NCBI GenBank assembly: GCA_020851855.1
Contig: JADZBY010000457.1
Location: forward strand, 1-47,154
DNA from: Anaerolineae bacterium
GTDB lineage: Bacteria; Chloroflexota; Anaerolineae; Aggregatilineales; UBA2796
DNA: 47,154 nucleotides
Direction: 5' to 3'
A program made the translations under genes and the position numbers. Of the stretch, positions 6,631 to 17,083 are shown in pieces. A model generated the notes under the pieces. It did not search any database. It saw only the letters and a program-made list of their open reading frames with translations, and was not told the DNA's origin. Each line of letters begins with the position of its first letter. The stretch's first letter is position 1.

Positions 6631-7215
6631 ATGGGCCTGAGCAATAAGCGGCGCGTGTTCGTCGAAGAGTATTTGAAGTGTTGGAACGCTTCAGAGGCAG
6701 CCCGGCGCGCGGGTTACTCGGTCAAGAACGCTGATGTGGTGGGCGCACGTTTGTTGGTAAATGTTGGTATTGCCGAGGCGATTGCGCGGCGGTTGAGTGA
6801 AATCCAGATGAGCACCGATGAGGTGCTGGCCAGGCTGACTGAACAGGCGCGCGGGTCGATGGCTGACTTCATCAACCCGGAGACGGACACGATTGACCTG
6901 GTGAAGGCACAGGAGGCCGGGAAACTCCATCTCATCAAATCATTCAGCCGCTCCATTGGCAAGACCCAGACCACGCGCATCGAACTCTACGACGCCCAGG
7001 CCGCTCTGGTGCAGATCGGGCGGGCCAGGGGGATGTTCGTGGATAAGATCGCGCCCACTGATCCCAGTGGCGAGCGCGAGTATCAGCCGGTGGGTGAAGA
7101 GGAACACGAGCGCGCGGCGCTGGAATTAACTGAATGGCGACTCAAGCAGATCGAAGCGTTGAATGGCTTAAATGCGACGCTGACCCGGCATACTTCATCG
7201 ACACCTACGGGGTGA
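6631..7215 (+). CDS. terS: Terminase small subunit
   Basis: MGLSNKRRVFVEEYLKCWNASEAARRAGYS... Terminase_2-type N-terminus; precedes TerL. Confidence 0.85.
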   Translation: MGLSNKRRVFVEEYLKCWNASEAARRAGYSVKNADVVGARLLVNVGIAEAIARRLSEIQMSTDEVLARLTEQARGSMADFINPETDTIDLVKAQEAGKLHLIKSFSRSIGKTQTTRIELYDAQAALVQIGRARGMFVDKIAPTDPSGEREYQPVGEEEHERAALELTEWRLKQIEALNGLNATLTRHTSSTPTG

Positions 7216-8498
7216 TCGACTCCCCGCAAGCCGACGGTTACGCCCAGGAGCGCTTCCGGCTGTGGCCGGCGCAAGTCCAGTTGATGTGGCGCCTGCTGGC
7301 TGAGCGCCTGGTCATCATCCTAAAAGCACGTCAGCTTGGCATTTCGTGGTTGGCTTGCGGGTACGCGCTGTGGCTGTGCCTGTTTCGGCCTGGGCGTGTG
7401 GTGCTGTTGTTCAGCAAGGGCCAGCTCGAGGCGGACGAACTGCTCAGGCGCATCGGCGTGATGTATGTCTCTCTCCCTGAGTGGTTGCGTAACCGCGCGC
7501 CGGCGCTGGTCACCCAGAACGCGAGTGAACTGGCCTGGGCTAATGGATCTGTTGTCAGGTCGCTGCCGGCCACGCAGAACGCCGGCAGAACGTTCACAGC
7601 CTCACTGGTCATCATGGACGAGAGCGCCTTCATGCAGTGGGCGGAGACCTTGTACACCGCGCTCAAACCGACCATCGATGGCGGCGGGCAGCTCATCATC
7701 GTCTCGACGGCCAATGGCACGCGCGGCCTATTCCACAAGCTGTGGGTGAATGCTGTTAAAGGCGTCAACCGCTTCGTGCCGCTGTTCCTGAGCTGGCGCG
7801 CGAGGCCGGACCGGGACGAGGCCTGGCGCGCGAGGGTGGCCAGCGAGGCGATCTCGTCGGCGCTGGACCTGCAGGAGTATCCTGACACGCCTGACGATGC
7901 ATTCCAGAACACCGGCGGCGAGCGCTTCCTGCCCTCGATGAGCTGGTGGGATGCCTGCCGTGATAGCCTGCCGGCGCTCACGCGGCATGAGCCGATGGTG
8001 ATCGCGCTGGACGCGGCCACATCGAACGACTCGTTCGGCCTGATCGCGGTGACGCGCCATCCGGCAGACCATGAGCGCGTGGCCGTGCGGCACGTGCAGG
8101 AGTGGAAGCCCGTCAATGGCGTGGTTGACTTTAGAGAGCCTGAGCAGGTACTACGCGCACTAATTGCATCCTGGGGTGTGGCATGCGTGACGTATGATCC
8201 GTTTCAACTACACGACATGATGCAGCGTATGAAGGCCGAAGGCATTGCATATTTCAGGGAATTCCCTCAACAATCTCAACGCCTGGAGAGTGACAAGGCT
8301 CTACTGGATTTGATCGTGGCCCGCCGTATTGCACATGACGGCAATGAGGCATTACGAACGCACATTGAAAATGCAGACCGTAAGGTAGACGCCGAAAGCC
8401 GTAGGTTGCGTATCGTGAAACGAGAGCAATCCTTAAAAATTGATCTTGCTGTTGCGCTATCAATGTGCACTTACGTGTGCTTGCAATTACCCTTGTGA
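7134..8498 (+). CDS. terL: Terminase large subunit
   Basis: Walker-A-like ILKARQLGIS, Walker B LVIMDESAF, nuclease motif VIALDAATSNDSFG. Confidence 0.92.
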   Translation: MATQADRSVEWLKCDADPAYFIDTYGVIDSPQADGYAQERFRLWPAQVQLMWRLLAERLVIILKARQLGISWLACGYALWLCLFRPGRVVLLFSKGQLEADELLRRIGVMYVSLPEWLRNRAPALVTQNASELAWANGSVVRSLPATQNAGRTFTASLVIMDESAFMQWAETLYTALKPTIDGGGQLIIVSTANGTRGLFHKLWVNAVKGVNRFVPLFLSWRARPDRDEAWRARVASEAISSALDLQEYPDTPDDAFQNTGGERFLPSMSWWDACRDSLPALTRHEPMVIALDAATSNDSFGLIAVTRHPADHERVAVRHVQEWKPVNGVVDFREPEQVLRALIASWGVACVTYDPFQLHDMMQRMKAEGIAYFREFPQQSQRLESDKALLDLIVARRIAHDGNEALRTHIENADRKVDAESRRLRIVKREQSLKIDLAVALSMCTYVCLQLPL

Positions 8499-8578: not shown

Positions 8579-9361
8579 ATGGCTGCTGCTAAGTCTATCT
8601 CACTGAGTGGGGTCTATAAAATCACCTGCACGACTAACGGAAAGTTCTACATCGGTTCGAGCAACAACGTCATCAGAAGACTCAAGGATCACATCTATGC
8701 GTTGAATCGAGGCAGGCACGACAATCAATATCTGCAACACGCCTGGGACTTGCACGGCGGAGCCGCGTTTGAGTTTTGCGTGATTGAAGCGTGTAACACA
8801 CAGTCCCTACTGGAAGCGGAGCAGACATGGATGGATACGCTTGACGCATGTAATCGCTCAGTTGGGTACAACATCGGCATCTTTGCTGCGTCAGGGATGA
8901 GAGGCCGCAAGGCATCTGCTGAAACGAAAGAGAAGCAATCCAGAATTCGTCAGGGGAGAAAGCCGTCACCAGAGTCTGTTGCCAAAACCGCCCTGGGGCT
9001 TATGGGCCACGAATGTTTCGCTGAGACTAGGGAGAAAATATCCAGGGCCAAAAAGGGCAGAAAGGTATCCCCTGCATTTAGAGCGCATCTTCAGTCGATT
9101 AGCAAGGGCAGAAGATTCACGCAACAGCATCGTGATCGTATTGGTGCGGCAAACAGGCGGCGTGATCCAGAGGTATATCGGAGGGTGTCTGATGCGGTTG
9201 CGCACGACTATCTCTTGACTGATCCACAAGGGAATGTCTATCAGGTTCACGGGCTTAAGCAGTTTTGTGATACCCACGGTCTGAATTACACAAATGTGTC
9301 ATGTCATAGCGTCAGCGGGAAGCCCTACAAAGGTTGGAAATGTCAGCGGTTGCCGATTTAA
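8579..9361 (+). CDS. GIY-YIG homing endonuclease with NUMOD3-like repeats
   Basis: SGVYKITCTTNGKFYIGSSNNVIRRLKDH...; repeated [E/P]xxREKISRAKKGRK-type motifs. Confidence 0.9.
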   Translation: MAAAKSISLSGVYKITCTTNGKFYIGSSNNVIRRLKDHIYALNRGRHDNQYLQHAWDLHGGAAFEFCVIEACNTQSLLEAEQTWMDTLDACNRSVGYNIGIFAASGMRGRKASAETKEKQSRIRQGRKPSPESVAKTALGLMGHECFAETREKISRAKKGRKVSPAFRAHLQSISKGRRFTQQHRDRIGAANRRRDPEVYRRVSDAVAHDYLLTDPQGNVYQVHGLKQFCDTHGLNYTNVSCHSVSGKPYKGWKCQRLPI

Positions 9362-12325: not shown

Positions 12326-14905
12326 ATGCCATACACGAACATTCCGCGTGCACTTTGGGGTAAGGCCGACAGGCTCGTCAAGAGGCTGACTCGACGTGGC
12401 TACTCCAAAGACAAGGCTGTCGCGATTGCTTACTCCTCCATTGTTGGCACGAAGGAAGCTCGATCCATCACGGTTACCCTGAAAGCCCCCAACTATGGGG
12501 CGCGCGCGGGCCAGACCATCGCCGGCGCGCTGGGCCGTGGCTCTGACGGTCGATTCGTTCGCGCGGGCGGGCCGAACCTCGCCAATCTCTCCCCCATCGC
12601 ACGCGCCAATAAGCCCAAGCCAAAGAAGGGCAAAGCCCAGCCCAACGCTGCATCGATCAGCAAGGCTGGTGAAGGCGTCAACGGTAAGGCGCTTATTGCC
12701 TTCGCAGGCGGTGGATCGCTGTCGGATACAGACGGCGCGGCGCTTGAATCGAAGGGCCTGGTGGAGCGCAGTCGCGACGGCAGCTTCAAGCTATCCAGCG
12801 CGGGCCGATCCCTATTGCGCGCATCGGCACGGAACGATACACGCGGCATGCAGGATGCACTGGCCACAGGGCGCGATCGCGTGGCGGCAGCCGGTGAGCG
12901 ACAGACCAAGCGGGCGCTGTCTGCGCAACAGAAGCTGGATAAGCAGGCCGCGCGCAAAGTCGAGACCGCGCGCCGGCGCGCTGAGGCGGAAGCCAAACGC
13001 GCACAGCGGGAAAGTGCGCGCCAGGTCAAAGCCGAACAGCGTAAAGCTGCACAGCGCCAGAAGGTGGAGAACCGCATCGAGGAGACACAAGCCAAACTCG
13101 AAGCCGAGGGCTTGAGCGAAGACAAGCGCCTCACGTTGACAAATAGGCTCGAAGAGTTGCAGGCGCAACTGGCGACGCTGAAGGAAGGGCACACCGGCGC
13201 GATGGTGGCGCTGTTCGTGCCAGTTGATGTGGCAAAGGGGCTGGTTAATGCAGCGGTTACATCAGGCGTGGACGACGTTGATGTGACGCCTGTGGACGAA
13301 GTGCACCTCACGCTCGCCTATCTGGGCAAAGCAGCGGACATTGAGAATTACAGGATTCCACTGCAAAAGGCGCTGTCGGATTTCGCACGCAACGAACCGC
13401 CTATCACCGGCAAGATCAACGGTGTTGGGCGCTTTGATGGGGTTGAGGACGGGGAGTTGAATGCGTACTACGCCTCTTTCGACGCGCCCGCGTTGCCCGA
13501 TTTCAGGCAGCGGCTCATGGGCGCGATACAGTCTACGGGTATCCCGCTTGAGATCACCCACGGATTCACGCCACATATCACGCTGGCCTATCTGCCAGTG
13601 AATGACAAGGCGCCAGACATCAAAGTGCCCGCTGACAACTTCACGGTGGACGAGGTTGTTCTGGCGTGGGCAGGTGAGCGTGCGGCCTTCAAGCTCGAAG
13701 GCGAGCCTGAGCAAAGCGGCATGGTGGTTGTCAAACAATCGGACGGCCAGTACCGCTGGATCACCTACAGCTCCAACTCATTCGAGGACACCGACCGCGA
13801 AATCATCACGCAGAAGGCGCTGGAGGATGACATCGCGCGCACCGATACGGACGGCAACTATGGGCCGCTGCGCTGGTGGCATTGCGGTGAGTATGCCTTC
13901 AAAGAGGCGGGCAACTGGGAGTCGATTGACCCTGGACCAGGCCTCGACCTGGGGGAGTGCGATTTCTCTGCCATGCACGGGCGCATCCTGATCGAGTCAG
14001 GCACGTTCCGTCATCCGGCCATCGGCGCAGCGATGAAGCAGAAGGCGAGCCAGTTGCAAGTCTCGCTGGGCTTGGTGCACCCGCCTGTCGAACCGGTCGG
14101 TGGGATTTACACGCGCATTCGTCGGTTTGAACGTTCTGCCCTGCCGAGAGGCAAGGCAGCGAATTTATTTACGGGTGTTTCGGTCGCAACACCTGCGACC
14201 GCGAAGGAGAGCAATATGAATGCAGTCAAACTCGCAGCACTCAAGACTTTATTGGGTGATGACTACGAGGCCGTCGCGGCGGTGCTGAAAGGTGCTGAAG
14301 CGACAGAAGCACAAGCCACAGAAGCCGGGGTGCGGTTCAAAGAGGCGAATGAACAGCCGAAGACCGAACCGGAACCCACGCCCGGTACGGCGTCGCCTGA
14401 AAGGGGAAAGCCAGAGGCGGGCGCCACGGAAGCCGACAACGCAGCCACGGTTAAGGAAGCCCCTTCTGCCGGTGGCCCCCCAGCGTCTCCGCCAGATGCT
14501 GCATCGGCAGAGGGGGAGTCTGAGTCCGAGTCAGCATCCGAAGGTGAAGCCGAGGGCGAAGAGGACGTGACCTTCATCGGCGACATGACGCCGGACGAGT
14601 TCATGCAGCTCATCGTGTCCGGCATCTCGCAGGCCTTGCAGCCACTGATGGAGGCGATGCAAGCGCAGACCAAAGCAGCATCGGAGGCCGTGACGAAAGA
14701 GGCAAAAGCTCAGATCGACGGCATGGGCACGCTGGCTGCATCACTGAAGCAGGTCAGTGACCGGCTGAAGGAGCTGGAAGGCGATGCGCCAAAGGGCGGC
14801 TTCCGGGCATCTGAATCGACGGGCACGATCACCACACCGCCAACGCTGAAGCAACAGTCGGAGGATGACCTGGCGAAACTCGCCGGTTTCATGATTAAAG
14901 GTTAG
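12326..14905 (+). CDS. Multidomain head maturation protein: N-terminal domain, 2H phosphodiesterase (LigT-like), XkdF-like protease, acidic scaffold C-terminus
   Basis: HLTLAYLG (13304) and HITLAYLP (13574) 2H motifs; following region WITYSSNSFEDTDREIITQKALEDDIARTD...; acidic coiled C-terminus; immediately upstream of capsid. Confidence 0.75.
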   Translation: MPYTNIPRALWGKADRLVKRLTRRGYSKDKAVAIAYSSIVGTKEARSITVTLKAPNYGARAGQTIAGALGRGSDGRFVRAGGPNLANLSPIARANKPKPKKGKAQPNAASISKAGEGVNGKALIAFAGGGSLSDTDGAALESKGLVERSRDGSFKLSSAGRSLLRASARNDTRGMQDALATGRDRVAAAGERQTKRALSAQQKLDKQAARKVETARRRAEAEAKRAQRESARQVKAEQRKAAQRQKVENRIEETQAKLEAEGLSEDKRLTLTNRLEELQAQLATLKEGHTGAMVALFVPVDVAKGLVNAAVTSGVDDVDVTPVDEVHLTLAYLGKAADIENYRIPLQKALSDFARNEPPITGKINGVGRFDGVEDGELNAYYASFDAPALPDFRQRLMGAIQSTGIPLEITHGFTPHITLAYLPVNDKAPDIKVPADNFTVDEVVLAWAGERAAFKLEGEPEQSGMVVVKQSDGQYRWITYSSNSFEDTDREIITQKALEDDIARTDTDGNYGPLRWWHCGEYAFKEAGNWESIDPGPGLDLGECDFSAMHGRILIESGTFRHPAIGAAMKQKASQLQVSLGLVHPPVEPVGGIYTRIRRFERSALPRGKAANLFTGVSVATPATAKESNMNAVKLAALKTLLGDDYEAVAAVLKGAEATEAQATEAGVRFKEANEQPKTEPEPTPGTASPERGKPEAGATEADNAATVKEAPSAGGPPASPPDAASAEGESESESASEGEAEGEEDVTFIGDMTPDEFMQLIVSGISQALQPLMEAMQAQTKAASEAVTKEAKAQIDGMGTLAASLKQVSDRLKELEGDAPKGGFRASESTGTITTPPTLKQQSEDDLAKLAGFMIKG

Positions 14906-16405: not shown

Positions 16406-16439
16406 TTAGGGGTAGGACGTGGCAACCATGATGAGGCAG

Positions 16440-16907
16440 CTAGAAATTAGTAGCGGCGAACTCGCCATGATATTTCTTGGCTGCCTCATCATATGCTTTG
16501 GCAGCTTCAATCTCGCTGTCAAAAAAACCCAAGTGGTGATCCTGATAGTCAACAGTGATCTTGGCTTTCCACTTGCCGTATTGAGATGTCCAACTAACGC
16601 CTTTGTACTTGGAACTTGTCTTGCGGCGTTGCTTGCGATTGGACTTGCAGTTCTCACCGTGACGACAAACGCGCAAATTAGCACGGCGGTTATCAAGCCT
16701 GTTCCCGTTGATGTGGTCAGTATCCAAGCCAGCGGGCGTGTTCATGATGAGCCGGTGAAGGTAGCGCTGACGCGCATTCTTCCCATAGCCAATCGTGTGA
16801 GCGGCATACCCTTTAACCAGATGCCATTTCTGTTTGCTGGCCCACTCGTAGACATCCTCATCAACCAGAATTGCTTCGCCGCGCGAAGCCAAGATAGTCT
16901 TGCCCAT
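16440..16907 (-). CDS. HNH homing endonuclease with AP2 domain
   Basis: RYLHRLIMNTPAGLDTDHINGNRLDNRRANLRVC and SKYKGVSWTSQYGKWKAKITVDYQDHHLGFFDSEIEAAKAYDEAA. Confidence 0.93.
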   Translation of the reverse strand: MGKTILASRGEAILVDEDVYEWASKQKWHLVKGYAAHTIGYGKNARQRYLHRLIMNTPAGLDTDHINGNRLDNRRANLRVCRHGENCKSNRKQRRKTSSKYKGVSWTSQYGKWKAKITVDYQDHHLGFFDSEIEAAKAYDEAAKKYHGEFAATNF

Positions 16908-16926
16908 CACGTCGTTCCTTTAACGC

Positions 16927-17045
16927 AAAGAGCTGGATACCTGCCGAGGCAACTTGTCGAGGGTTGCGGATTCAGGCAGATACCCAGCTCTTTACCGACA
17001 AATATTCACTTGTCCCAGAGACGACAAAATCCGCAAACCCTCGAC
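16927..17045 (-). ncRNA. Structured leader of HNH-AP2 gene with interleaved (pseudoknot) pairings
   Basis: Arms 16927-16945/16975-16993 (19 nt, 2 mismatches) interleaved with 16956-16972/17028-17045 (17/18 nt, one bulge). Confidence 0.55.
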
Positions 17046-17058
17046 GCCGTTAATTGTA
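17040..17058 (-). promoter_or_regulatory. TACAAT-8-TCGAG promoter-like motif for HNH-AP2 gene
   Basis: Minus strand TACAATtaacggcgTCGAG, same architecture as modules A-C. Confidence 0.5.
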
Positions 17059-17083
17059 GCCGTCGCATTGCGGGGTGTCAATC

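Follow-up and report, generated by a model that had tools for sequence, protein, structure and literature searches.

The messenger RNA of an HNH-AP2 homing-endonuclease-type phage gene begins with a leader that can fold into two long interleaved helices, and the same layout, with unrelated letters, recurs at the start of many other phage transcripts, mostly those of replication-initiation and homing endonuclease genes. It therefore looks like an undescribed kind of phage on/off leader RNA. From the perspective of its mechanism, which is inferred from sequence, the element is best read as a cis-acting, co-transcriptional switch of the attenuator type, a reading to which a probability of about 0.58 is assigned. 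The leader lies in the window, that is, the whole stretch of 47,154 nucleotides that was analysed (contig JADZBY010000457.1, assembly GCA_020851855.1), where the following features were identified:

17076-17081, minus strand: -35 box TTGACA
17053-17058, minus strand: -10 box TACAAT, with the predicted start site at the first bases of arm A'
17027-17045, minus strand: arm A', the 5' arm of helix A, at the predicted RNA 5' end
16975-16995, minus strand: arm B', the 5' arm of helix B
16956-16973, minus strand: arm A, the 3' arm of helix A, inside the loop of helix B
16925-16945, minus strand: arm B, the 3' arm of helix B, with an interrupted U-tract (CUCUUUGCGUU) at its 3' end
16915-16921, minus strand: Shine-Dalgarno AAAGGAA, not inside either helix
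16440-16907, minus strand: HNH-AP2 homing-endonuclease-type gene, 155 aa, antisense to its neighbours

All four arms reported in the first-pass annotation are present, in the order A'-B'-A-B. Helix A is formed by GTCGAGGGTT(T)GCGGATT with AATCCGCAACCCTCGAC and comprises 17 bp with one bulged T, or 18 bp when extended to 17045-17027 / 16973-16956, whereas helix B comprises 19 bp as originally delimited and 21 bp when extended to 16995-16975 / 16945-16925. A scorer for interleaved helices gives -48.7 for this arrangement, while the best of 3000 dinucleotide shuffles reaches -33.8. It is also the best interleaved pair in the whole window, the next being -36.5, and the nested fold alone has z = -4.4. 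Two points of the first-pass annotation are corrected. It had missed the perfect TTGACA located 17 nt before TACAAT (11 of 12 consensus), which completes a near-consensus sigma-70 promoter with 7 nt between the -10 box and A', so that the RNA should begin at A'. Additionally, the Shine-Dalgarno starts about 5 nt after helix B, not 13, and the ATG is about 19 nt after it.

The G-U pairs of helix B are pairs only in the RNA of the HNH-coding strand, and the opposite strand gives an interleaved score of only -19.3. This strand specificity argues against the possibility that the helices matter as DNA inverted repeats, for instance as a cruciform or a binding site for the HNH-AP2 protein, which the proximity of a DNA endonuclease gene in many loci might suggest. 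The fixed position after promoters and before Shine-Dalgarno sequences, the occurrence before non-endonuclease genes and the absence of any sequence shared between elements also speak against this possibility, which is considered very unlikely.

The downstream protein carries an HNH_3 domain (30.3 bits, above its cut-off) and an AP2 domain (31.5 against a cut-off of 33.3 bits), and matches phage HNH endonuclease families (PHROG 99 HNH endonuclease). A 22-nt inverted repeat (16428-16449 and 16471-16492, 82% complementary, 21 nt apart) surrounds the 3' end and stop codon of its gene, and is possibly a terminator or an insertion boundary. A relative of the neighbouring 473-aa protein was found (29% identity; locus L485, the L labels denoting here the loci that were compared). 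Elsewhere in the window, a GIY-YIG-type homing endonuclease gene (8579-9361) follows a terminase large-subunit gene (7134-8498), which may be interrupted, and an 859-aa protein (12326-14905) carries a 2'-5' RNA ligase/LigT-like domain near residues 285-458.

HNH-AP2 relatives (roughly 30-65% identity) were collected from viral contigs, and a number of their leaders show the same topology with unrelated sequence. Since an unfiltered pseudoknot scan gave many false positives in G+C-rich coding DNA, a U-tract, a promoter and shuffle controls were added. With a strict descriptor requiring interleaved helices and at least 5 T in 7 after B, 25 of 282 non-redundant leaders from metagenomic phages score -20 or better, 17 of them with a -10 box just before A', against 1.05 and 0.12 in shuffles and 1.9 and 0.2 in control segments of the same loci. 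In 663 kb of phage contigs, 25 hits reach -24 or better with a -10 box, against 0, 1, 0 and 0 in four locally shuffled sets. In most strong copies, a -35 box matching TTGACA at 5-6 of 6 lies about 34-37 nt before A'. Nevertheless, over 85% of the HNH-AP2 leaders lack the element. In a second form (L101, L063, L220, L364, L365/L451), A' lies in the apical loop of a 5' hairpin and would kiss the loop of the B hairpin; most of these have a TAnnTTTG-like box, possibly of the Bacteroidetes type. Three other HNH-AP2 genes (L003, L015, L069) are preceded by a different shared leader, GCCCCCGC..CTGCCGGGAGCGTGGCCGATTCTGA..GGAGAACCGACATG-like, with a possible hairpin around the Shine-Dalgarno, which suggests a second leader class. 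A scan of genome contigs with the HNH alignment gave one locus only, and the leaders of annotated phage HNH-AP2 or initiator genes were mostly inside operons without their own promoter.

The element is not specific to HNH-AP2 genes. Copies also precede replication-initiation genes in four phages (L438, L436, L445, L451; PHROGs 1408, 19658, 2562, 11233) and an N6/N4 DNA methyltransferase gene (L451), as well as genes of unknown function, although the downstream genes that are not HNH are few. One phage (L436) has four copies with different arms, one before an initiator and three before HNH-AP2 genes. Two isolated phages have probable copies, namely Flavobacterium phage elemoE_10-3D, upstream of a small gene and its replication gene, and Burkholderia phage BcepMigl, upstream of gp20, HNH gp21 and replication gp22; in neither case was any of 1000 shuffles as good. 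In the Vibrio phages L488, L489 and L495, a promoter-like box upstream of the replication-like gene is followed at once by a simple terminator-like hairpin and then by the gene's Shine-Dalgarno; simple promoter-terminator leaders may be common on phage replication genes.

Compensatory changes were observed in both helices of alignable relatives. Homologous leader pairs of about 70-82% identity, aligned by BLAST without structure, show many double-sided changes, for example L433/L436 with 5 compensatory and no breaking changes, and two copies in L438 with 3 compensatory and none breaking, although some kissing-type pairs also show breaking changes. In a sequence-only MAFFT alignment of nine leaders, 89% of cells pair against 33-45% for slid partners, and 20 of 25 pairs have double-sided changes, 10 in each helix. 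The structure was taken from one of the nine sequences, which favours the unslid version on the percentage paired; on double changes, the slid versions reach at most 10 pairs and 18 cells, against 20 and 45. No alignable homologue of the window leader itself was found, and DNA similarity searches against phage or plasmid records gave nothing informative for this leader or for the L132, L436 and L451 copies. The shared topology and the compensatory changes in alignable relatives support the first-pass interpretation of a structured leader that is either an H-type pseudoknot or two mutually exclusive helices acting as a switch, albeit with a wider range of downstream genes than the HNH-AP2 gene it had considered. 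Several relatives have only 0-2 nt between A and B, so a full pseudoknot is doubtful there by a geometric estimate, and competition or partial pairing is assumed.

Arms match within an element (0.98 and 0.93 of the outer 8 pairs, high by selection) but not between elements (0.41 and 0.47), and they differ between copies in one phage, so there is no shared trans target. This argues against the terminated RNA of about 90-120 nt being itself the product, a small RNA acting in trans on phage RNA or as a partner of the protein, with the gene expressed by read-through as in type III toxin-antitoxin loci or P1 C4. Such a reading would fit the order of promoter, compact RNA, terminator and gene seen in type III loci, and the four arms, complementary in the order a' b' a b, may recall C4. 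However, no Rfam family, including ribozymes, C4, HEARO and riboswitches, matches the window or its relatives at gathering score, only chance-level matches appear below it, and the leader contains no tandem repeats, all of which make this alternative quite unlikely.

In most strong relatives, B is followed by a U-tract, B'-B looks like an intrinsic terminator and a Shine-Dalgarno comes next, so transcription attenuation is more likely there than pure translational control. In 23 of 31 strong elements, moreover, a start codon lies within 3 nt of the A' start, and its frame is open through the element in 19 of 23, against 5 of 23 in each other frame; with ATG or GTG at -1/-2 it is 16 of 16. Some copies are related, so these counts are not fully independent, but they point to a leaderless leader peptide in one large subgroup. 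The stop often overlaps the ATG of the main gene, and sometimes the frame is fused to it, as in the L438 copy at reverse-strand 16255 and the L436 copy at reverse-strand 10291, where it continues into the HNH-AP2 gene without a stop and an N-terminally extended protein could be made. Regarding the energetics, A'-A is largely or fully in the minimum-energy fold before B is transcribed in 30 of 31 strong elements, while in the full RNA the A fold wins in some and the B fold in the rest, often with similar energies. This is what a co-transcriptional switch needs, but it does not show one.

According to the preferred reading, the leader decides co-transcriptionally how much of the transcript reaches the downstream gene. 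A'-A would form first as the RNA emerges and would compete with, or topologically hinder, the B'-B terminator hairpin that would stop RNA polymerase before the gene, and a ribosome starting at the 5'-terminal start codon would disturb A'-A and then B'-B, so the balance could respond to translation. Termination, competition and the response to translation are all inferred. The window copy is a variant whose mechanism may differ: it has no start codon at A', its U-tract is broken (at most 4 T in 7, CTCTTTGCGTT, whereas L317 has CTCTTTGTTTAGGAG at the same place as CUCUUUGCGUU), the loop of B'-B is 29 nt, and no terminator was predicted at 16995-16925. It probably works as a weak attenuator or a translational gate that keeps HNH expression low or timed.

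For this copy, translational gating is a serious rival. In its general form, this alternative holds that the leader acts mainly on translation or mRNA stability, a stable 5' pseudoknot blocking 5'-end-dependent decay and tuning initiation at the adjacent Shine-Dalgarno, with no role in termination. The missing proper U-tract and the Shine-Dalgarno just 3' of helix B agree with it, as does the fact that phage homing-endonuclease genes are known to be held back by RNA structure at the ribosome-binding site (PMC2988022). Since most strong relatives carry a U-tract right after B, the descriptor that requires one is strongly enriched, and the Shine-Dalgarno is not sequestered in either helix, it is regarded as unlikely overall.

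A bolder version of the preferred reading, which can only be held tentatively, is a new kind of phage attenuator in which the first-formed 5' helix of an interleaved (1:3/2:4) pair topologically gates an intrinsic terminator, read by a ribosome that starts on a leaderless start codon at the very 5' end of the RNA. It would be used by phages of several host groups to set the timing of replication-initiator and homing-endonuclease genes, and would be invisible to sequence-based RNA searches because only the topology is conserved. If true, phages carry a widespread RNA switch that existing RNA libraries miss, which would bear on when phage replication starts and on how homing endonucleases are kept harmless, and which predicts leaderless peptides translated through a terminator.

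No description of this layout was found in the open-licence papers searched, most of them judged by title and abstract, and the element is placed here with transcription attenuators and structured leaders rather than in any named family. Among known systems, the RBS-sequestering hairpins of T-even phage homing endonucleases (I-TevI, segB, Aeh1 mobE) and the seg43(25) hairpin of Aeromonas phage 25 are also structured leaders directly before a phage homing-endonuclease gene, and seg43(25) likewise has a hairpin just upstream of a free RBS (PMC2988022). Those are single hairpins, mostly covering the RBS, and none is described there as an interleaved two-helix leader; here the RBS is free, most relatives have a U-tract and other gene types carry the element. 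Classical transcription attenuators, including leader-peptide, T-box and antisense-controlled terminator/antiterminator leaders (reviewed in PMC7430163), can also form a terminator hairpin or a competing helix, and in many relatives of the present element a leader frame runs through it. In the classical cases, however, the alternatives share a strand (nested 1:2, 2:3, 3:4), while here the pairs are 1:3 and 2:4 and the leader frame starts at the RNA 5' end without a Shine-Dalgarno. Pseudoknot riboswitch leaders controlling terminators, such as those for fluoride and preQ1, may offer a further parallel, in that a pseudoknot at the 5' end competes with a terminator, but the present element has no conserved ligand-binding core, its arms vary freely and its helices are mostly 10-21 bp. 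The P1/P7 C4 antisense RNA and icd-ant leader (PMC8198154) is a phage immunity leader, likewise with complementary segments and a short leader gene, although C4 appears to be a processed trans-acting RNA with a conserved fold, and its Rfam model gives no match here. Finally, type III toxin-antitoxin leaders (ToxI/ToxN) may share the succession of promoter, pseudoknotted RNA, terminator and nuclease gene, but here there are no tandem repeats, the protein is of an HNH-AP2 DNA-endonuclease type and not the ToxN endoribonuclease, and terminator and pseudoknot would be one structure.
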